A stretch of 64,000 nucleotides of DNA, from contig JANXCF010000008.1 in assembly GCA_025059995.1 (NCBI GenBank), forward strand, positions 1-64,000. Reading direction: 5' to 3'. Below, in pieces: positions 1 through 10,530 of this stretch. A program made the translations under genes and the position numbers. Every line of letters starts with the position of its first letter. The stretch's first letter is position 1. This DNA comes from Leptospiraceae bacterium. Lineage in GTDB: Bacteria; Spirochaetota; Leptospiria; Leptospirales; Leptonemataceae. The notes beneath the pieces were generated by a model. That model saw nothing but the letters and a program-made list of their open reading frames with translations. It was not told the origin of the DNA and made no database searches.

Positions 1-535
1 ATATTCCTCTTTGGTAAGGATCATTGATAGGAAGCCCACTATTCATTAGCCATCGAACTTTCCATGACAAAAACAAAGGATCCAAATCCTCATCCACAAA
101 CAAATAAGCATAATTATGATATTTTTTTAATGTAGGGCTTTCTGATCTTCCTATCAGGATTTCTTCTAACTGCTCTTTTGTATAACGACTTGCTACCGTA
201 GATAAATCGGGTCCTATCCTTTGCATCCCTATGGGGAAAGGAGCAAAAAAGAGAAATTCATTTGGCTCAATTGAAGGATCGTAGCCATACTTTTCGAAAT
301 CTATATATCTTTTGATTTCTGAAGTTTGAGTTCTTACATTCAAAGTATGGCAATATTGACAACCCTCTTGGTAGTATATTTCTGAACCCTTTAATACTAA
401 TGGGTTTTCAGGTATTTGCGTAAAAGAATGTTTTCCATGCAAATCGACCTCAAAAGAAAAGTAAACAGTTATAGCATAACCTATAACTAAAATTAAAACT
501 ATGGTGAAAAATAATCTTATGGGTTGCTGTATCAT
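1..535 (-). CDS. CcoO-like monohaem cytochrome c (cbb3 subunit II homologue), partial at window edge
   Basis: The product begins with one membrane anchor and then has a haem c site CQYCH. This is followed by an R-x-G-P-D-L stretch and a late V-R-W-L...G-L-P segment that match the order of motifs in CcoO, the monohaem subunit of cbb3 oxidases. The usual distal-ligand segment (S-x-M-P-G-Y) reads S-P-T-L-K-K-Y-H-N-Y here, so the methionine is replaced and a histidine lies nearby. I chose the ATG at 535 because AGGAG (542-546) sits six bases upstream. An in-frame ATG at 541 directly abuts that AGGAG. The gene follows the CcoN-like gene, and the AGGAG overlaps that gene's stop codon. The C-terminus lies outside the window. 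The family call is good; the function is uncertain. Confidence 0.75.
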   Translation of the reverse strand, partial: MIQQPIRLFFTIVLILVIGYAITVYFSFEVDLHGKHSFTQIPENPLVLKGSEIYYQEGCQYCHTLNVRTQTSEIKRYIDFEKYGYDPSIEPNEFLFFAPFPIGMQRIGPDLSTVASRYTKEQLEEILIGRSESPTLKKYHNYAYLFVDEDLDPLFLSWKVRWLMNSGLPINDPYQRGI

Positions 536-544
536 ATTCATCTC

Positions 545-1888
545 CTATGCCGTTTTTTCTGTCAGAAATTCTTTCGTTTTGAATGCTATAGGAACTAATA
601 AGAATGCTATAATCAAATAAACTATATCAAGTATGATTTTTACATAGTGAACAAAACTGGTTTTCGATAATATAACTTCCCAGCTATTATTCACGATATT
701 GCCGTCCTTCATTTCATAAATTGCGAATGATTGTAAGATACTTTCTAAACCAAATAATAACATTATGATAATAAATATAGCTAAGAATGTGTTTGATAGA
801 TAAGGATGAATGGGTTCTTTTAATTGATGTTTTTGATAGGCAGTATATAAGAAGTAAAGTGGCATCAATAAATATAGAACTTTATTTGGAAGAATCAAAA
901 CATCAATACTTGTATATTGAATATACCTATAAATGATTGGTAAACTTAAAATTGTATTGACTAAGAAAAAGATGCTCAACGCTATTCCAAAAACAGGAAT
1001 AGTAATATAATGCTCTTTTTTGGTTTGGTAATATAAATTATGTAAATAATACATAAACCCTAAGAAAAGTAGATTGATTACAGAATATACATAATTTCCA
1101 ATCCATGTCCAAAAATTTTGGTAAGGAGAGTTCCCTAAACCAACGCCACCCGAAATAGAAACTAAAACGGCAATCATGATAAAGAAAGAAGAGAAGTTTA
1201 TACCTTCATCATCGATTTGATTATAATTTTTAATCACTGAATAGAAAATACTAATTAATGGCATTCCAACGAAAAATACCAATACTCCCGTTGTATAAAA
1301 ACCTTGTGAGATTGCATCTTGGAAACCAGATGTGGGTGGAACAATTGTGATGTATGAGTTGGGAAAACCAAAATTTCCTAAAAAAAAGGTTGCCATCATA
1401 CCTGCTAAGGTGAAGATAATTAACTGAAAAATGCCATTCACTTTTCCATAAGTTTTAACATGGACTAATGTCAAGACAACAGCAATTGTGAAAACAAGCA
1501 TAAACAAGTTATCAGTAATAAAATTCATTTCACCATAAATCCTACCATCATTTCTTCCCAACATGATTGTTAGTAATCCAAACACTAAAGATAGCTGATG
1601 GACATAAAAAGAGATATTTCCAACTATTGTTGGTTTTATTTGGTCGATGGGTAGTTTATCAAGTTCATCATACAACATAGATAGAAAAAAAGAAAGTATG
1701 CTCCCAAAGATTACGATGATCAAGAAAATTGGGGTTAATTTTCCATAACCAATCACTTCACTGGATGAAAACAAACCAAACTGTAATTGTAAGCTACCAA
1801 CAAAACTTATAAATATTGCCAAGATAAACCAAATAATCCCTGCGTTTTTGTAATATTCAGATGTAGTTTTATATCCTCTCTTTTCCAT
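545..1888 (-). CDS. CcoN-like haem-copper oxidase subunit I homologue lacking metal ligands
   Basis: A 447-aa polytopic membrane protein with about 12 hydrophobic segments. Segments align with CcoN, the catalytic subunit of cbb3 oxidases. Y48-G-K-L-T-P-I-F55 corresponds to the F-G-R-L-R-P-L-H motif, with Phe55 in place of the low-spin haem His. Q190-D-A-I-S-Q with F197-Y-T-T200 corresponds to Q-D-A-x-x-Q-W-W-Y-G-H, with Thr200 in place of a CuB His. Residues 244-252 (S-I-S-G-G-V-G-L-G) replace the Y-I-W-A-G-P-H-H segment. No histidine occurs where the helix-10 haem ligands should be (around L-I-L-P-N-K). The protein therefore should not bind haem b, haem b3 or CuB. It starts 4 nt after the stop of the diheme cytochrome gene and precedes the CcoO-like gene. 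A structural or scaffold role is inference. Confidence 0.75.
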   Translation of the reverse strand: MEKRGYKTTSEYYKNAGIIWFILAIFISFVGSLQLQFGLFSSSEVIGYGKLTPIFLIIVIFGSILSFFLSMLYDELDKLPIDQIKPTIVGNISFYVHQLSLVFGLLTIMLGRNDGRIYGEMNFITDNLFMLVFTIAVVLTLVHVKTYGKVNGIFQLIIFTLAGMMATFFLGNFGFPNSYITIVPPTSGFQDAISQGFYTTGVLVFFVGMPLISIFYSVIKNYNQIDDEGINFSSFFIMIAVLVSISGGVGLGNSPYQNFWTWIGNYVYSVINLLFLGFMYYLHNLYYQTKKEHYITIPVFGIALSIFFLVNTILSLPIIYRYIQYTSIDVLILPNKVLYLLMPLYFLYTAYQKHQLKEPIHPYLSNTFLAIFIIIMLLFGLESILQSFAIYEMKDGNIVNNSWEVILSKTSFVHYVKIILDIVYLIIAFLLVPIAFKTKEFLTEKTA

Positions 1889-1892
1889 AACT

Positions 1893-2795
1893 TTACTCCA
1901 CGATTGCTTTAATGTATTGAATTAGGGTTGTCCATTGTTCATCTGTAAATGAATAATTTTGATGAGCTTTTTGGATATTTTCTTTTGAGATAGCGGTGTT
2001 TTTTAGGTCAGGTATCCCTACATATGCGGCTTTTCTTCGTGCTATATCCTTAATAGGTTCATACCTTGATTTATCTAAAAGTCCGATATGACTTGAACCT
2101 TGTATTCCTTCTCCACCAACTCCATGACAACTTTGACAATTATTTTGATATAGAACATAACCATCGAAATAATCCTCTCTTGCTTTTGAAATTTTTTCTG
2201 CTCTTTTAGCGTCCAAAGTTGATATACTGATGTCTTTTGCCACTGTGTAATTCGTTTTTTGGATTGTTTTTTCTAAATCTGGTGATGGTGTCCTTTCAGA
2301 TGCCGGGGTATTCTCTCCAAAATACCATTTACGATTTTCTTTATAAATTTCTTTTACTTGCTTCATATCTCTTGCTACTGCTTCCTGCCATTGTTTTTTT
2401 ATTTCTAAATCTTTTGGTTCTTTTCCTAAAGAGTACAAAAAGTTTGCTAATCCCCATTTAGCTTTATCTGTGAGATAATAGTAAGCATGATAATTATAGC
2501 CATCTTTTATTGTGTTATTAGTTCCAACAGAGATGGCTTTGAAGTAACTTAGTGGTGTTTTTTCTGGAGTTAGCTCAGCTGTGAAATCTGGAACTTTTAC
2601 ATCTAAGTCTCGTGCTTCTGGTCCATTTCCTTTATAGTCTACCCCATGGCAGTTTTTACAATTCATTTCCGTTGAAGCATAGACAATAGATCCATAATTG
2701 ATAGAATCTGGTGTTGCTTCATATACTTCAGGTTCTTTTTTACAATAAAGCATCAATGTGATTATGGATAATAAGAAAATATATAAACGTATCAT
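1893..2795 (-). CDS. Diheme c-type cytochrome lipoprotein with histidines at the distal-ligand positions
   Basis: A 300-aa protein with a lipoprotein signal peptide (lipobox L-M-L-Y-C18) and two haem c sites, C46-K-N-C-H50 and C220-Q-S-C-H224. It has two class I-like cytochrome domains joined by a charged linker of about 90 residues. The usual distal Met is absent: there is no Met between residues 45 and 143 or after residue 144. The equivalent places carry H103 (N-Y-H-A-Y-Y-Y-L-T-D) and H278 (A-H-Q-N-Y-S-F-T-D), each just before the W-containing last helix. Bis-histidine ligation and a low redox potential are therefore likely (inference). It lies between actF and the CcoN-like gene, in the place where a CcoP or electron-transfer cytochrome would be expected. 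It is probably anchored on the periplasmic side. Confidence 0.8.
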   Translation of the reverse strand: MIRLYIFLLSIITLMLYCKKEPEVYEATPDSINYGSIVYASTEMNCKNCHGVDYKGNGPEARDLDVKVPDFTAELTPEKTPLSYFKAISVGTNNTIKDGYNYHAYYYLTDKAKWGLANFLYSLGKEPKDLEIKKQWQEAVARDMKQVKEIYKENRKWYFGENTPASERTPSPDLEKTIQKTNYTVAKDISISTLDAKRAEKISKAREDYFDGYVLYQNNCQSCHGVGGEGIQGSSHIGLLDKSRYEPIKDIARRKAAYVGIPDLKNTAISKENIQKAHQNYSFTDEQWTTLIQYIKAIVE

Positions 2796-2818: not shown

Positions 2819-4069
2819 TTAATGATGTCCATGCAAACATTCTTCTAATCGTGGATCATTGATGGGTATGAGCTTACTTTTTGTAAGAGCATACCCAATA
2901 ACTAAAATATACAAACCAGTGAATAATAGCAGCGATCCGATTTCCTGCCAGGAAATCATGACAAAATGACCATGATCTAATGTTGGATATAATACCCAAT
3001 ACATATCCCAAATTTGACCAAATAGCACTAACCCAGAAACCGCAGCCAACCATCCAAAATTTCTCTTTGAATCTCTTCTGATTAACAAAAAGAAGGGCAG
3101 TACGAATCGAATAAAAATTAAAGATAGTGATACCAAAGCCCAAGGGTTGTGGCTCATATCGTCGTTATAGATTCTGGTATTGTAAAAGATGGTTTCTTCA
3201 GGGATATGCCCATACCAAATCAACAAGAATTGAGAAGCTATACCAATATACGCCCAAAAAATGGAAGAACCCCAAATGTACTTTCCAACGTCATGAATGT
3301 GGTTTTCTGTTAGTGTATCTCCATAGTAGCCAGCCTTCTTCAAAAAGTAAACCCATATTGCCATTGCAGAAAAACTACTCAATAAAACTCCTGCAAAGAT
3401 ATACACAGCCCAGATGGTAGAAAACCAGTGGGGTTCAATACTCATGCTTAAATCCCAAGAAGTTGTCGATATGGTTAATCCAAAAACGACGGCAAAACCA
3501 GCTGATATTTTCGCTAAGGTAGGAGTATGTTCGAATTTTCCGTCATGATCTTGTTGAACCGAGAGCTTCCAAAGATACCAACCAAATATGATCCAAATGA
3601 TAAAAACAACAATGTTTCTTCCAATAAAAAAAGGAACATTGAGCCAAGGGGATTTATGCTTAACGAGTTTGTCGGTTTCTGGAGCATGAACCCAGTGATG
3701 AAATACTTGATCAATACCTAATCCCAAAATCAAAATGAGAAACACCAGCATGACGGGCATGAACCAAAAGTGGGTCTCAGCCAATCTTCTTATTGTTACG
3801 CTCCAAGCAGCACCCGATAAATGATGAACTGAAACAAAAAAGATGGATCCCAACGTGATTGGAAGAAATACCAAAAACGCTAAGTGTAATGAATAGAAAA
3901 GCCTGGGATTTCCATGATGATCTCCACCATGATGATGAGCAGAATGCCATGGAAAAATAATTTGCAATATCGTTAAGAACAAACCAATTAAAAATAAACC
4001 TAATGCAATGTTGCGTAGTTTTGATGAGAAATGAAATTCGATATTAGAATTTTTTTCAACTCCTGCCAT
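2819..4069 (-). CDS. actF: Alternative Complex III subunit ActF (quinol:cytochrome c oxidoreductase membrane subunit)
   Basis: A 416-aa polytopic membrane protein with about ten transmembrane segments, matching the ActF subunit (NrfD-related) that with ActC forms the quinol-side membrane core of ACIII. The N-terminal region has a His-rich periplasmic or loop segment (H-S-A-H-H-H-G-G-D-H-H). Conserved-looking patches include a W-D-L-S-M-S-I-E-P-H-W stretch near the middle. It is the last act gene of the cluster, starting 9 bp after the actE stop, and is followed by the cbb3-like module. ACIII transfers electrons from menaquinol or ubiquinol to a cytochrome or directly to an oxidase. The identification rests on the gene order actABCDEF and sequence character, and is strong. 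Confidence 0.92.
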   Translation of the reverse strand: MAGVEKNSNIEFHFSSKLRNIALGLFLIGLFLTILQIIFPWHSAHHHGGDHHGNPRLFYSLHLAFLVFLPITLGSIFFVSVHHLSGAAWSVTIRRLAETHFWFMPVMLVFLILILGLGIDQVFHHWVHAPETDKLVKHKSPWLNVPFFIGRNIVVFIIWIIFGWYLWKLSVQQDHDGKFEHTPTLAKISAGFAVVFGLTISTTSWDLSMSIEPHWFSTIWAVYIFAGVLLSSFSAMAIWVYFLKKAGYYGDTLTENHIHDVGKYIWGSSIFWAYIGIASQFLLIWYGHIPEETIFYNTRIYNDDMSHNPWALVSLSLIFIRFVLPFFLLIRRDSKRNFGWLAAVSGLVLFGQIWDMYWVLYPTLDHGHFVMISWQEIGSLLLFTGLYILVIGYALTKSKLIPINDPRLEECLHGHH

Positions 4070-4078
4070 TTGACACCT

Positions 4079-4693
4079 CTACTTTGCGTTTTGTTGTAAT
4101 AATCTGATATAATGTATGATTGCCCATCGATCCTCAGGTAAAATTTGAGCTGCGTAAGCCTTCATTCTTGCTCTTCCTACAGTTATGATGTGATAAAACC
4201 TACCATCTTCCCAATCTAAAACATTTGATTTATCACCCGCAAGTGCTGGGATGTTTGCCAATCTTGGAGAAAGTGGTCCATCACCTAAGCCTGTAGCTCC
4301 ATGGCAAACGGCACAGTAGACGTTATATTGTTTTTGTCCTCGTTCTAATACCTGTTTTGTAGGTTTTAAAGGGTTCTTTAGTTCCTTTGCTGGTGTATCA
4401 AAGTCATTTGGATCATATAGATAAGGCATATAGTTTCTTGGGACCGTCCCTTCGGGTGGCACCCTCATGGTAGAACCAAATCCTGATTGGCTTTCGATGT
4501 TATCACTACCTTTGAGTTTAGCACTATAATAACTAACCAAATAAGTTGTAACGTCCTCTTCTTGGGACTCAACTGCATAGTTATCATGTAAATCCAAAAA
4601 CCAATGCAAACCTGATTTGTTTCCTGCGTAATTACAACTCCACAAAACTGGTAAAACAGCAAATAAAGTTAGATATTTCATTACAGCTTTCAT
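4079..4693 (-). CDS. actE: Alternative Complex III monohaem cytochrome c lipoprotein ActE
   Basis: A 204-aa lipoprotein with signal peptide and lipobox (V-L-W-S-C). It carries one haem site, C-A-V-C-H-G, followed by G-x-G-D-G-P-L and a distal Met in G-R-A-R-M-K-A-Y, so it keeps the normal His/Met ligation, unlike the cytochromes encoded just downstream. ActE hands electrons from the iron-sulfur/pentahaem part of ACIII to the terminal acceptor. The ATG at 4693 overlaps the actD stop codon (ATGA), which indicates translational coupling. An internal ATG at 4681 would also give a complete signal peptide. Confidence 0.92.
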   Translation of the reverse strand: MKAVMKYLTLFAVLPVLWSCNYAGNKSGLHWFLDLHDNYAVESQEEDVTTYLVSYYSAKLKGSDNIESQSGFGSTMRVPPEGTVPRNYMPYLYDPNDFDTPAKELKNPLKPTKQVLERGQKQYNVYCAVCHGATGLGDGPLSPRLANIPALAGDKSNVLDWEDGRFYHIITVGRARMKAYAAQILPEDRWAIIHYIRLLQQNAK

Positions 4694-5391
4694 TTTTCAC
4701 CTACCTTTTTGATTTCTTCTGCGCCGAGTTCTTGAAAAAGAGCTCTTATTTGATCTTCATTATAGTTTTTAGAACTACCTGATATCCACAAAACAAACTT
4801 ATCATCAGTTATTCGTTCATCTAAAGGAATTCTACTTGGCTTGGGCATTCTGGATAAAATCATCAAGGTTATCACCGTGCTCAAGCCAGCAAACAAAACT
4901 GTTAATTCGAAGGATATAGGTATCATGGCTGGCCAACTGAATGTAGGTTTACCACCATAATTTAGAGGATAAGAATTCAAGTTGGGGTAAGCATCGATTG
5001 CTCGAGTGAAGGTGTAGGGAATTATGTTTTCGTGAGATATGGTTTGTACAAACACTGCTAGAATAAAACCCGTTAACCCTCCAAAAAATGTTACGTAGGG
5101 CAATTTTGACCTTTGATAACCCATTGCATACTCTAACCCATGAATTGGGAAAGGAGAAAAACAATCAAATTGATCATATCCTCTTTCCCTAACAGCTTTT
5201 GCGGCTTTTAGGAGTCTTTCGGGAGAATGAAAAACCGCATACATCCCTGTATTGGCTTCTTCATATCGATAGACGAAAAAGCGATTAATGAAGTTATTAA
5301 AGGCTCGTGTTTGTGCTCCAAAAAAAGCATCTAAAAATTTTTCTAACTTCTCGAATATCTTTTCTATTATATCATCTCTTTTAGTGACCAT
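4690..5391 (-). CDS. actD: Alternative Complex III subunit ActD (DUF3341)
   Basis: A 233-aa protein with an extended soluble N-terminal part and two central hydrophobic helices (about residues 97-120 and 155-180), as in ActD of ACIII (DUF3341 family). The C-terminal soluble segment contains D-D-K-F-V-L-W-I, typical of the family's end domain, followed by an acidic tail. No metal site is visible, and the subunit is thought to be structural. It overlaps the end of actC by 11 bp and the start of actE by 4 bp. The N-terminal 40 residues are longer than I would expect and precede the typical Y-A-V-F-H-S-P-E-R start of the domain. Confidence 0.92.
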   Translation of the reverse strand: MVTKRDDIIEKIFEKLEKFLDAFFGAQTRAFNNFINRFFVYRYEEANTGMYAVFHSPERLLKAAKAVRERGYDQFDCFSPFPIHGLEYAMGYQRSKLPYVTFFGGLTGFILAVFVQTISHENIIPYTFTRAIDAYPNLNSYPLNYGGKPTFSWPAMIPISFELTVLFAGLSTVITLMILSRMPKPSRIPLDERITDDKFVLWISGSSKNYNEDQIRALFQELGAEEIKKVGEK

Positions 5392-6793
5392 AACCCTTTG
5401 CCTCCGGTGATTTTACTAAGGTTTTGACTTCTGCGATCGCTATGGTAGGGAAGAATCTTGCAAACAATAGGAACAAGGTGAAAAACAACCCAAAAGAACC
5501 AGCCAAAATGGCATATTCATGAATTGTCATGATATACATGTCCCAGCTTCCAGGCAAGAAATCTCTGTGTAATGAGGTAACAACAATCACATATCGCTCA
5601 AACCACATACCAATGTTGACAAAAATGGAAATGATCCACAAGGCTACAGGATTGGTTCGGATTTTCTTGAACCAGAATAATTGGGGTGTGATAACGTTAC
5701 AAGAAACCATAATCCAGTAGGACCACCAGTAAGGACCAAATGCTCTATTAATGAAAGTAAAAGCTTCGAATTTACTTCCTGAATACCATGCCACGAAAAA
5801 CTCAGTAGCATAAGCAATCCCCACTAAAGAACCCGTCAACATTGTGACCTTTGCCATGTTCTCCAAATGCTTTTCTGTGATGTATTCTTTAAAATTGAAA
5901 ACTTCCCGCATTATTACGAGCAAAGTAAGAACCATACCAAATCCCGAAAACACAGCTCCAGCAACGAAATACGGAGGAAACACAGTTGTGTGCCATCCTG
6001 GGATTACAGAAGTTGCGAAGTCAAAAGAAACAACGGTGTGAACAGAGAAAACCAAAGGCATGGAAAGTCCCGCTAATATCATGGCTGTTGTTTCGTAATG
6101 TGCCCATGCTTTGGCACTACCTACCCATCCAAACGACAATACTGAATAGATCTTTTTTCTGATTTTGTTTACCCAGTTATCAGGTTTAATTCTATCACGA
6201 ACTGAAGCAAAATCAGGTATCAGACCCAAATACCAGAACACAAGTGATGTGATCAAGTAAGTCGAAATCGCAAAAACGTCCCAAAGTAGTGGCGAACGAA
6301 AATTTGGCCACAGAGTTCCCCGTTCATTAGGATAAGGGAAAATCCAAAATACAAACCATGGTCTTCCTAAGTGGATAAGAGGATACATCCCTGCACAAAT
6401 CACCGCAAAAATCGTCATCGCCTCAGCAGAACGATTGATTGCCATTCGCCATTGTTGTCTAAATACATACAAGATTGCGGAAATCAACGTCCCAGCGTGT
6501 CCAATCCCAATCCAGAAAACAAACGTGATAATAAAGGTTCCCCAACTCACAGGAACATTGATCCCAATGATTCCTATCCCCGTTGCAAAAAGATAAACAA
6601 TTTCAGCTAATAAAAGCAACAAGAAAGAAAAGGAAATTCCAAAGGCTATCCACCAAAGTTTTGTTGGAAAAGTATTGATGGGACGGATAATATCATCTGT
6701 GATCTGCTTGTAGCTCTTATCACCCTCCACCATGGTAGGGTGAATGTATTCTAACTGCTCTTTTGTTAAAGTGTGTGTTGTTTGATGTGCCAT
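5381..6793 (-). CDS. actC: Alternative Complex III membrane subunit ActC (NrfD-like)
   Basis: A 470-aa NrfD/PsrC-family membrane protein with about ten helices, the main quinol-interacting subunit of ACIII. Recognisable pieces include W-I-G-I-G-H-A-G-T-L-I-S-A-I-L near residue 97, L-G-R-P-W-F-V-F-W near residue 147, and the W-Y-S-G-S-K-F-E-A-F segment near residue 339. It sits between actB and actD with a 19-bp gap on the actB side and an overlap with actD. The length and order are those of a standard ACIII operon. Confidence 0.94.
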   Translation of the reverse strand: MAHQTTHTLTKEQLEYIHPTMVEGDKSYKQITDDIIRPINTFPTKLWWIAFGISFSFLLLLLAEIVYLFATGIGIIGINVPVSWGTFIITFVFWIGIGHAGTLISAILYVFRQQWRMAINRSAEAMTIFAVICAGMYPLIHLGRPWFVFWIFPYPNERGTLWPNFRSPLLWDVFAISTYLITSLVFWYLGLIPDFASVRDRIKPDNWVNKIRKKIYSVLSFGWVGSAKAWAHYETTAMILAGLSMPLVFSVHTVVSFDFATSVIPGWHTTVFPPYFVAGAVFSGFGMVLTLLVIMREVFNFKEYITEKHLENMAKVTMLTGSLVGIAYATEFFVAWYSGSKFEAFTFINRAFGPYWWSYWIMVSCNVITPQLFWFKKIRTNPVALWIISIFVNIGMWFERYVIVVTSLHRDFLPGSWDMYIMTIHEYAILAGSFGLFFTLFLLFARFFPTIAIAEVKTLVKSPEAKGYGH

Positions 6794-6812: not shown

Positions 6813-9800
6813 TTATAATATTGGATTTCTAACTTTTGCTAAGTAAGTAATGGATGGATCTACCCCTAAGAATTCCAACACCTTATAACCTCTTCCCTTC
6901 TTGACTAATTGAGAAACTTCGGAGTTGGGATCGTTGATGTCTCCAAAGTAGATTGCATTTGTTGGGCATACTTCTTGACATGCAGTTTTAACACTTCCAT
7001 CAGGAATGCGATCAAGTCCCTTCAAACGTGCATCTTGTCTTGCTCGATTAAGTCTTTGTAGGCAGAAGTTGCATTTTTCCATGATACCTCTTTTTCGAAC
7101 GGTGACATCAGGGTTAAGAGCCAATTGCTGCGGATCTTGTAATTTTCTGATGGCACCTTCCATGTAATCCCAGTTTTCAAACCAGTTGAATCTTCGCACC
7201 TTATATGGACAGTTATTTGCACAATAACGGGTTCCGATACATCGGTTGTATACCATCACATTGATACCATCATCACTATGGGAGGTTGCAGCAACAGGAC
7301 ACACATTCTCACAAGGAGCATTCCCACATTGTTGACAAAGCATAGGTTGATGTACAACTTCAGGATTAGATTCATCACCCGAATAATATCGATCAATCCT
7401 CATCCAGTGCATTTCTCGTCCTGTATGAACTTCTTTTGGACCCACCATAGGAATATTGTTTTCAAGATTGCAACTTGTAATGCAAGCCCCACATCCAATA
7501 CACAAATTTAGATCAACCACCATATACCATCGAGTTCCTTCGTATTTCCATTCGGGCATCAAAGAAGCATTTTCTGGGAACTCAATTGCTTGTTTAGGTG
7601 CCTTCCAACCGTTCTTGTATTCAGCATAGGTGGTTTCAATTACGAGATTACGATCATACTGAGATGAAGCTTCATAAGGAGCATTCGGTAGTGTCCCGGG
7701 TGAGAAAAAGGCACGATTTTCTGTATTTCTTCCCGTTCGATATACCATTTGGGTTACAGCCAACTTCACGCGCTCTCCAGTGAGGGACACAGGAGACTCC
7801 CCATTGGGTAAAGGAGAAATACCGGTTAGTATCCATTGTCCTTCTTTAATGGAAGTGATTTTTATAGCATTTTCTCCTACATTATTTCCAACCTTACCCG
7901 CAGAAGTTCTTCCATAGCCCAATGGTATGAGCATTGCCTCGGGATGTAGACCTGGCTGTAAATAAACGGGAAGTTTCAATGTTCCTTCTTCTGTTTTGAT
8001 TTCGACTATGCTTCCTTGCTTGAGCTTGAGTTTTCTTGCCGTTTCTGGTAAAACAGCAACATAGTTCGACCAAACCACTTTTGTGATTGGATCCGGTTGT
8101 TCTTGACGATAAGCATTATTTGCCCCCGTTCCATCATATAACGAAATGTGATAGAAAAGTCCAATTCTATATCCTGTAGTATTTTTTGGTTCCTTGGGTA
8201 ATCGGTCTAGAGATGAAAGCTCAAACCTTCTTTCTTTTCCGGCTTTTCCGGGCACATCTAATTTTTTTGTTTGATAATATCCACTTTGGAGAATTCCGAT
8301 CCAGAATTTCGTAAAGCTTTCTTTCGTTAATTTAGCCCACTCATTTTTAAGGTACTCATGAAAACTATACTCACTAATCCTTGGTCCTAAAATTTGGATT
8401 AAGTAATCTTCGAAAGAAAGGGTGTCATACAAGGGTCTTATCACAGGTTGTATCACAGAACGAATTCCACTTACTAACTCCACATCACTCCAGCTCTCCA
8501 TATAGTGTGACAGAGGAAGAACTGCATCTGATGCCCAACCTGTTTCATCAATGCGATCACTAAAAGAAACCACAAAATCCGCATTTTTCAATGCTTCTTC
8601 TACTTTTATAGAAGGGGGTAGATGATAAACCAAATTCGCATTTGCTAATAGAACCACTTTGATTTTTTGATTTCGAATATCTTCAATCACTTGTAGGATT
8701 TCTTTTATGCTGCTTCCGGGTGAAATGGTCATCGGATTTTGATAATCAATGGTTTTCCCGTCATTTCCTAAGATATGGTTGATAAAGTTTACAGCTATTT
8801 GAAGGTTCAACGCATTTTGATCTTCAGCCAAGGGCGAACCCGCAATTACTATGGAACTTCCTTTGTTTTCGCTTAGTTTTGTTGCCACTTTTTTGAGAAT
8901 AGATGAAGACACACCCACCATTCCTTCTATTTTCTCAGGGATGTAGTTTTGTAAAAGAGATCGAACTTGATCATTTTTAGCAAAAGGTCCTACCATTAAT
9001 TGATTGTTTAACTCCGCTGCTATCGACAACGCTATGAGATAAGCATCTCCGGGTTTGATGGGGAAACGATGATCTGCATAGCCACCAGTGGTCGTAAACA
9101 TGGACTCAAAAACAATCAAGCTATTGTAATCTTGTTGCTTCTTGTAGTTTAAATTTCGTTTTTCTGTAAACGCTCTACTATATACTTGAGCTCCCGGGAA
9201 TGTTCCCATGAAATCATTTTCAATAGCTACTACAAGTTTCGCTTTATCAAATCGGAAGTAAGGAACAACACTCGTTCCATAAGATAACTTTTGTCCTTCT
9301 GCAATGGTTCTTAATGTTGGATCAGGACGAAACTCATAATGCTTTCCATTTGGGAATTGTTTGATAAATTCATTGATTAACTTTTTGGATGTTGGACTTT
9401 GAATCGGACCTGTTATTAATACATAATTTTCAGATTCGATTTTGGTTTGGATTTCACTGATGATTTCTTCTTTTGAAGTTTTAGACTTTCTTTTGTTTTC
9501 GATTCGCACAGCATATCGCAAACGATCAGGATCGTATAAATCCATGATATCAGCCACTTCTCGTCCAGACACACCTCCCTTTGTTAAGGGATGATCCGGA
9601 TTTCCTGCGATTTTGATGGGTCTTCCTTCTCGTGTGTGAATGATTATACCCGTTCCCTCTGGTGTTGCAGAAGCATAATAAACTTTTTCCCCTGGGGTGT
9701 ATTCTGGCGATTGAATGACAGCTGGGATGATTTGCTCTGTAGGTCTTCTACATGCAGCAGTTACCATTACAGCAGAAGCTCCCAAGAACTTCATGAAGTC

Positions 9801-9950
9801 TTTTCGAGAAAGTTTCTTTGATTTTGCAATTTCCATCATTTCTTTGAGTGTATATTCAAACTCAGGGGTTTTCCAGTTCTCAATCTCAGGTTGAGCTTTT
9901 TCTTCTAAGGATCTCCAATAGGTTTTTCTTTCCATCTTCATATCCCTCAA
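6813..9950 (-). CDS. actB: Alternative Complex III iron-sulfur subunit ActB (fused molybdopterin-like and Fe-S domains)
   Basis: A 1045-aa fusion. Residues from about 40 carry a Tat-like signal (S-R-K-D-F-M-K-F-L-G) that ends in V-T-A-A-C, suggesting a Tat-exported lipoprotein. The large N-terminal half resembles the molybdopterin oxidoreductase fold, which in ACIII carries no Mo cofactor. The C-terminal part has four cysteine clusters for FeS centres: C-I-G-C-G-A-C, C-Q-Q-C-G-N-A-P-C, C-I-G-T-R-Y-C-A-N-N-C-P, and a final C-N-F-C with a later C-x3-C-P. It is co-directional with actA (16 bp away) and actC. It links quinol oxidation to the haem subunits ActA and ActE. Confidence 0.95.
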   Translation of the reverse strand: MRDMKMERKTYWRSLEEKAQPEIENWKTPEFEYTLKEMMEIAKSKKLSRKDFMKFLGASAVMVTAACRRPTEQIIPAVIQSPEYTPGEKVYYASATPEGTGIIIHTREGRPIKIAGNPDHPLTKGGVSGREVADIMDLYDPDRLRYAVRIENKRKSKTSKEEIISEIQTKIESENYVLITGPIQSPTSKKLINEFIKQFPNGKHYEFRPDPTLRTIAEGQKLSYGTSVVPYFRFDKAKLVVAIENDFMGTFPGAQVYSRAFTEKRNLNYKKQQDYNSLIVFESMFTTTGGYADHRFPIKPGDAYLIALSIAAELNNQLMVGPFAKNDQVRSLLQNYIPEKIEGMVGVSSSILKKVATKLSENKGSSIVIAGSPLAEDQNALNLQIAVNFINHILGNDGKTIDYQNPMTISPGSSIKEILQVIEDIRNQKIKVVLLANANLVYHLPPSIKVEEALKNADFVVSFSDRIDETGWASDAVLPLSHYMESWSDVELVSGIRSVIQPVIRPLYDTLSFEDYLIQILGPRISEYSFHEYLKNEWAKLTKESFTKFWIGILQSGYYQTKKLDVPGKAGKERRFELSSLDRLPKEPKNTTGYRIGLFYHISLYDGTGANNAYRQEQPDPITKVVWSNYVAVLPETARKLKLKQGSIVEIKTEEGTLKLPVYLQPGLHPEAMLIPLGYGRTSAGKVGNNVGENAIKITSIKEGQWILTGISPLPNGESPVSLTGERVKLAVTQMVYRTGRNTENRAFFSPGTLPNAPYEASSQYDRNLVIETTYAEYKNGWKAPKQAIEFPENASLMPEWKYEGTRWYMVVDLNLCIGCGACITSCNLENNIPMVGPKEVHTGREMHWMRIDRYYSGDESNPEVVHQPMLCQQCGNAPCENVCPVAATSHSDDGINVMVYNRCIGTRYCANNCPYKVRRFNWFENWDYMEGAIRKLQDPQQLALNPDVTVRKRGIMEKCNFCLQRLNRARQDARLKGLDRIPDGSVKTACQEVCPTNAIYFGDINDPNSEVSQLVKKGRGYKVLEFLGVDPSITYLAKVRNPIL

Positions 9951-9966
9951 TTATGCAGTTATGAAA

Positions 9967-10530
9967 TCAATAATGACATGTTCCACAAGTTGTGATAGCA
10001 ATAGCGTTGTTATTACCAGCAGGGGTAGTTTCTTCGGTGTATTGTCGATGGCAGTTCACACACCAACCCATGTTGAACTCTGTATAAACATAGACTTTAT
10101 CCATAGTCTCAACTGGTCCATGACAAGTTTGACACTCAATCCCTCTGGCTACATGAGCTTTATGACTAAAATGAGCATGATCAGGAAGATCATAGACTTT
10201 ATTCCATCGAATGGGGATTCCTGCTTCATAAGATTTTCTAATGAATTGGATATGAGGACTATCACCTGCAACTTCAGTATGACACTTCATACATGTATTC
10301 AAATCAGGAACACTTGCATGCTCAGAACGCTCAACTGTGTAATGACAAAATTTACAATCAATCCCTACTTCTCCTGAATGAATCTTATGACTAAAAGGAA
10401 TTGGTTGGTCAGGTGCATAACCTTGATATTTTGGGTTTACCCCGTATAGGTAATAAAAAAAACCTAAAATAAGGAATATTAGCGTTAGCTTCCCACCATG
10501 CTTTTGGAATATTCTTCTGAGTGCGTTCAT
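9967..10530 (-). CDS. actA: Alternative Complex III pentahaem cytochrome c ActA
   Basis: A 187-aa protein with one N-terminal membrane anchor (about residues 14-30) and five CXXCH motifs: C-K-F-C-H, C-M-K-C-H, C-Q-T-C-H, C-V-N-C-H and C-G-T-C-H, the last almost at the C-terminus. This is the signature of ActA, the pentahaem subunit of ACIII. Additional histidines (P-F-S-H-K-I-H and H-F-S-H-K-A-H) fit bis-His ligation. It is the first gene of the cluster. An AAAGG-type ribosome binding site lies upstream, and a promoter candidate is described separately. Confidence 0.95.
   Translation of the reverse strand: MNALRRIFQKHGGKLTLIFLILGFFYYLYGVNPKYQGYAPDQPIPFSHKIHSGEVGIDCKFCHYTVERSEHASVPDLNTCMKCHTEVAGDSPHIQFIRKSYEAGIPIRWNKVYDLPDHAHFSHKAHVARGIECQTCHGPVETMDKVYVYTEFNMGWCVNCHRQYTEETTPAGNNNAIAITTCGTCHY

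Follow-up and report, generated by a model that had tools for sequence, protein, structure and literature searches.

A cbb3-derived module with a ligand-less CcoN-like protein, encoded with alternative complex III in a family of Leptospirales

The metal site is what defines subunit I of a haem-copper oxidase. Here we describe an operon in which a subunit I homologue with none of its six metal ligands is encoded together with a quinol-oxidising complex, alternative complex III (ACIII), and with cytochromes that carry an invariant His in place of the distal Met. The occurrence of a ligand-less oxidase copy in an ACIII operon, next to Met-to-His cytochromes, suggests that an old oxidase has been rebuilt into an electron wire in this spirochaete family. 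If a subunit I of this kind is conserved throughout a bacterial family and encoded alongside such a complex, it would be evidence that the fold of an oxidase may be re-employed as a scaffold. The module also offers a naturally occurring case in which to trace the fate of electrons from ACIII, which the Flavobacterium ActE deletion, as described in PMC8552683, leaves open.

Gene content of the operon

The operon occupies 10.5 kb on the minus strand at the start of the window (the whole stretch of DNA analysed, 64,000 nucleotides). ActABCDEF comes first and is followed by genes for a dihaem lipoprotein-like cytochrome (DiH), a CcoN-like membrane protein and a CcoO-like cytochrome (Table 1). The draft of the window genome (G000) comprises 17 contigs with a total of 2.38 Mb and is 95.8% complete. 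Assignment to ACIII follows from the presence of the ActABCDEF set with both the ActD and the NrfD-like signatures (PF11821 and PF03916) and from the gene order in relatives. No Pfam family scored above the cut-off for ActF, and the labels ActB and ActF are assumed by us for the corresponding genes of this operon. The contig ends within the CcoO-like gene, so that the window includes 180 of its about 212 residues. The remaining 28 C-terminal residues are encoded at the start of a second contig (G000:C2:1-84), and comparison with relatives suggests that some seven residues are lost in the gap between the two contigs. The fourth gene of the module, encoding a CcoP-like protein, follows on that contig.

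Table 1 Genes and haem-ligand sites of the ACIII operon and the adjoining module. Positions are those of the window unless contig C2 is named.
Feature	Position	Strand	Basis or remark
CcoO-like monohaem cytochrome	2..541	-	FixO PF02433, 9.2e-17; 3' end cut by contig end
CcoO-like, CxxCH	347-361		
CcoO-like, H142 codon	116-118		
CcoN-like membrane protein without haem or copper ligands	545..1888	-	Profile to PDB CcoN
DiH, dihaem lipoprotein-like cytochrome	1893..2795	-	Cytochrom_C PF00034; invariant His
DiH, CxxCH (two)	2646-2660, 2124-2138		
DiH, H103 codon	2487-2489		
DiH, H278 codon	1962-1964		
ActF of alternative complex III	2819..4069	-	Operon position; synteny in relatives
ActE monohaem cytochrome	4079..4693	-	PF13442; distal M177 kept, codon 4163-4165
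ActD	4690..5391	-	PF11821, 5e-56
ActC, NrfD-like	5381..6793	-	PF03916, 1e-24
ActB, iron-sulphur/molybdopterin-like subunit	6813..9950	-	Synteny, operon position, sequence
ActA, multihaem cytochrome, five CxxCH	9967..10530	-	Cytochrome_C7 PF14522, 2.2e-12
CcoP-like, fourth module gene, monohaem	C2:120-602		Start of contig C2, beyond contig break

The CcoN-like protein lacks all six metal ligands

A family profile of the CcoN-like protein matches the CcoN chains of cbb3 oxidases in the PDB over ~400 residues, with E-values from 6.1e-39 to 2.4e-31, and by homology the protein thus belongs with CcoN. A canonical CcoN is expected to carry six His ligands, and all six were present in each of the four canonical sequences that formed the control (seven of ten canonical loci gave no usable row); the assignment of these histidines to individual metals is presumed. 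In the CcoN-like family, no His was found in any of 20 rows at the sites for haem b3, for the second haem b and for the three CuB ligands, nor in any of 19 rows at the first haem b site, which the G010 sequence does not cover. In the row from G015, a His lies one column away from a ligand site. No H, M, K or C is conserved at 80% in the family alignment.

Loss of every ligand is also expected if a duplicated oxidase is simply decaying and has no present function, and the modest identity of the CcoN-like protein to its relatives (24-48%) would suit such decay. However, the gene is intact in 20 genomes at a fixed position in the operon, and dN/dS for orthologue pairs of 87-93% identity is 0.03-0.08, the same range as for ActE and ActF. 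On this dN/dS, pseudogene decay was rejected, and we regard it as extremely improbable. With the six ligands gone and dN/dS this low, the CcoN-like protein is under strong purifying selection and is retained, but not as a catalytic oxidase.

Distribution and synteny of the module

A search of 100 related genomes recovered the CcoN-like protein from 19 of 21 further members of the same family, and the weak matches in other families coincided with ordinary CcoN. The two family members without a match (G012 and G020) are uninformative, since their ACIII contigs stop inside ActF. As far as contigs extend, the order ActABCDEF-DiH-CcoN-CcoO is constant in all 20 genomes with the CcoN-like protein, and the CcoP-like gene comes next after the CcoO-like gene in 18/18 relatives whose contig continues. 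A scan of GTDB contigs with a five-row CcoN-like alignment, which relies on two short peptide patterns and says nothing on absence from other phyla, returned 10 of these loci, from MAGs labelled Leptospirales, Leptospiraceae, Spirochaetia, Spirochaetaceae or plainly 'bacterium'. The same contig scan with the window CcoN-like sequence alone gave no match.

ActD is nearly universal in the class (46/48 genomes) and was found in 50 of 392 sampled genomes of the phylum; the carriers outside the class (G057, G059, G069 and G079) have no CcoN-like match in the 100-genome search. The idea that ACIII always brings the module with it was rejected, as the module is absent from all 14 loci outside the family (f1) at which the 3' side of ActF is readable (L074 in part; L071 and L080 stop inside ActF). 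Other genes lie 3' of ActF at these loci, which suggests that the module was added within a single family of Leptospirales. In sister families, a small cytochrome c is encoded directly before ActA, and its distal segment has a Met in 9/9 loci (L072-L079 and L081). Among the open-access papers returned by literature searches, no title or opening part of an abstract mentions a ligand-less CcoN on ACIII or a His-ligated CcoO.

Invariant distal histidines in DiH and the CcoO-like protein

Ordinary CcoO is expected to bind its haem iron through the Met of a distal S-x-M-P motif, which we take to be general for this subunit. Among ordinary CcoO proteins of the same class, 35 of 36 rows indeed carry Met and the remaining one carries His (36 loci were fetched, of which 35 were readable, L120 being the exception; the window genome's own CcoO was added). 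In the CcoO-like protein of the module, Y141-H142-N143-Y144 stands in place of this motif, as the first-pass annotation had noticed. Outside CxxCH, H142 is the only fully invariant residue (20/20) among those counted, with K161 next best at 18/20; the count covered every H, M, K or C shared by at least 90% of the rows (80% for the dihaem subset of DiH and for the CcoN-like family), and tyrosines did not enter it.

The same annotation had reported that DiH has no Met at either distal position, and its residues and coordinates are right: H103 lies in Y-H-A-Y and H278 in A-H-Q-N-Y. The lipobox Cys, the CxxCH and H103 are invariant in 19/19 DiH sequences, and in the dihaem members the second CxxCH and H278 are invariant as well (12/12, with K86 at 11/12), a count that leaves out six mono-haem members and the DiH of G002, whose frame is broken near its end. 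The contig used for G010 carries neither DiH nor ActE. Since H142, H103 and H278 are all invariant across homologues, the change from Met to His is family-wide and not due to chance. In a tree, the 20 module CcoO proteins form one clade (support 1.0, stem 1.5), and because they do, the change in the CcoO-like protein is most simply explained by one event that was then fixed. The module CcoO thus keeps CxxCH but not the His/Met haem c of a cbb3 oxidase, Met-Pro having become x-His in 20/20. By sequence the module belongs to the cbb3 family, but as both features that define this family, the metal ligands and a His/Met CcoO, are missing, it should not be called an oxidase.

Substitution by His does not by itself place the residue on the iron. 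H142 falls in the Pro column of S-x-M-P, one residue past the Met, H103 likewise aligns with the Pro of Met-Pro in 6h5l_B, and H278 was aligned across a loop of variable length. These offsets would fit a reading in which the conserved histidines stand off the resting iron, the haems are otherwise bound or five-coordinate, and DiH and the CcoO-like protein serve on ACIII as haem proteins of a peroxidase-like or gas-sensing kind. Structure models, which could not place the histidines, leave room for it too: predictions for DiH (10 rows) and for the CcoO-like protein (11 rows, headed by the full-length protein from L055 since the window copy is cut) reached mean pLDDT values of 63 and 49, which do not allow ligation to be judged, and no PDB entry matched the poor DiH model at E 0.001 or better in a fold search. 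Nevertheless, no other H, M, K or C is fully invariant, K161 and K86 coming closest, and the same change has occurred in two unrelated proteins of the operon; we therefore consider off-iron histidines quite unlikely. The distal segments of DiH and the CcoO-like protein have also lost their prolines, as reported for MtoD of Sideroxydans lithotrophicus, a haem c protein described as having His for the usual Met in a proline-poor distal segment (PMC4412085), and they share with it, at the sequence level, the replacement of Met by His. The haems of DiH and the CcoO-like protein are most likely bis-His.

The second haem domain of DiH is missing in 6/19 sequences (L039, L040, L042, L043, L045 and L053; genomes G004, G021, G018, G016, G014 and G013), which indicates that this haem is dispensable. 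In G002, the ActE and DiH frames appear broken (L036 8536-8901 and 10422-11222), through either sequencing error or real decay. One ordinary-type CcoO, that of G008 (L093), has a His exactly at the distal Met position (S-T-H-P, within STHPAYPW). It belongs to a second cbb3-type pair with divergent gene order (L122 8561-10814), and the adjoining CcoN keeps all six ligands, so that a CcoO with His at this place can occur alongside an intact cbb3 site. This pair is possibly a His-ligated CcoO on an intact oxidase.

Cytochromes that keep Met and the question of potential

The first-pass annotation interpreted these changes as a shift of the whole module to bis-His haems of lower potential. A whole-module shift is not borne out by the remaining cytochromes. 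The CcoP-like protein, which has one haem and groups with the CcoP subunit of cbb3, retains CxxCH and Met in 18/18 relatives and in the window genome. ActE retains M177 in 18/19 sequences, the exception being a truncated ORF, so that the annotation was correct in stating that ActE keeps its Met. Met is therefore kept at two of the five haem sites considered, and a third site, the second haem of DiH, is the one missing from six genomes. The module probably mixes His/His with His/Met haems.

Neither is a lower potential entailed by bis-His ligation. MtoD, a class-I monohaem cytochrome c in which both ligands are His and the distal segment is not rich in proline, has a reported potential of +155 mV (PMC4412085), which means that such ligation does not imply a low potential. 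In the ACIII of Rhodothermus marinus, the ActA haems, bis-His except one, are reported to span -45 to +230 mV, and the His/Met haem of ActE lies at +165 mV (PMC5928083). A change from Met to His should thus not be taken as low potential without measurement.

Low-potential bis-His haems might still exchange electrons with something other than a terminal oxidase, such as a low-potential periplasmic or extracellular partner. The invariant His at three haem sites and the absence of an active site from the CcoN-like protein are compatible with this, and ACIII elsewhere is described as oxidising menaquinol, a low-potential donor (PMC8552683). We nonetheless judge it unlikely, given the Met kept in the CcoP-like protein and ActE and the potential that bis-His haems can reach. 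No dedicated multihaem partner was found in the window genome by two tests, both so insensitive that they missed even ActA. Of the proposal that the module serves a role other than feeding a conventional cbb3 site, one part stands, since there is no cbb3 site within the module, but a lower potential and another role do not follow from it.

A proposed electron relay from ACIII

We give about even chances to the explanation that these genes form one functional ACIII module, in which a catalytically dead cbb3 acts as a scaffold and carries a relay of haems out of ACIII. A former C-type haem-copper oxidase would have lost its active site and become a cofactor-free membrane scaffold, on which the CcoO-like and CcoP-like proteins would be docked beside ACIII. 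Electrons from menaquinol would then pass through ActB, ActA and perhaps ActE to the His/His haems of DiH and the CcoO-like protein, on to the His/Met haem of the CcoP-like protein, and out toward a terminal oxidase, in the window genome probably the separate intact cbb3. Such a relay would replace a diffusible cytochrome c, and the potentials of DiH and the CcoO-like protein would not need to be low. What is observed is the gene set, the loss of the ligands, the invariant His and the selection; the scaffold role, the order of the haems and the partner are what we infer.

In the window genome, the single PF00115 match is an intact cbb3 on contig C7. Matches to PF00034 and PF13442 comprise ActE, members of the module, the CcoP of that cbb3 and, on contig C1, a dihaem protein that we take to be MauG- or peroxidase-like. 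No free monohaem carrier was found with these two profiles in the 95.8% complete draft, a search that does not extend to cupredoxins. Known ACIIIs are described as delivering electrons either to soluble carriers or, within a supercomplex, straight to an oxidase (PMC8552683, PMC5928083). Taken together, one intact cbb3, no free carrier found and this known handover favour a scaffolded relay to an oxidase.

Relatives mostly have two to six PF00115 matches. G013 has one, of a longer type, which from its length and score looks aa3-like. Because the oxidase content varies among relatives, the constant partner of the module would be ACIII rather than one particular oxidase, and the module is not tied to cbb3. 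A further elaboration, which we put forward only tentatively and hold to be doubtful, is that an oxidase stripped of all its metals has been kept for its shape: it would be a pseudo-cbb3 wiring hub fixed to ACIII, possibly the dead partner of a real cbb3, with His/His haems tuned between menaquinol and the His/Met exit.

Comparison with known systems

Like cbb3 oxidases (PDB 3mk7, 9g6b and 6xkw), the module comprises homologues of CcoN, CcoO and CcoP encoded in that order, and its CcoO and CcoP proteins combine a haem c with N-terminal membrane segments. It differs from them in the six His ligands absent from the CcoN-like protein, the His for Met-Pro in the CcoO-like protein, the single haem of the CcoP-like protein, the extra dihaem lipoprotein ahead of it and an operon that begins with ACIII.

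ACIII-(c)aa3 supercomplexes of R. marinus and Flavobacterium johnsoniae likewise join ACIII to an oxidase-derived partner, by a path that is able to by-pass soluble carriers (PMC5928083, PMC8552683). The partner described there is an active aa3-type oxidase, whereas that of the module is derived from cbb3, has no active site and would be associated with ACIII on the evidence of the operon; membership among supercomplexes with an active oxidase is thus not supported by a CcoN-like protein without metal ligands. If the inference holds, the module would resemble an ACIII supercomplex partner in its working. For F. johnsoniae, aa3 is reported not to require ActE, and the electron path has been proposed to split (PMC8552683). 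In Rhodobacter capsulatus, bc1-cbb3 with cytochrome cy offers another case in which anchored cytochromes wire a quinol-oxidising complex to cbb3, but as described the system consists of bc1 and a live cbb3, with no dead oxidase subunit (PMC8361435). MtoD, for its part, is a small soluble shuttle with proven ligation, whereas the module proteins are anchored subunits of an ACIII operon with predicted ligation (PMC4412085).

Two further observations concern the haem-copper oxidases of these genomes. The ordinary cbb3 CcoP of the window genome (L034 9734-10279, on G000:C7) is short, at 182 aa, and apparently has one haem c; a textbook CcoP has two. In G022 and G034 (L134 2726-6584 and L135 2752-6638), two dissimilar haem-copper subunit I genes of ~475 and 575 aa are adjacent, with a gene of 174-178 aa between them. 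The shorter subunit I keeps only some of the His residues, and these pairs may represent a nitric-oxide-reductase-like system.
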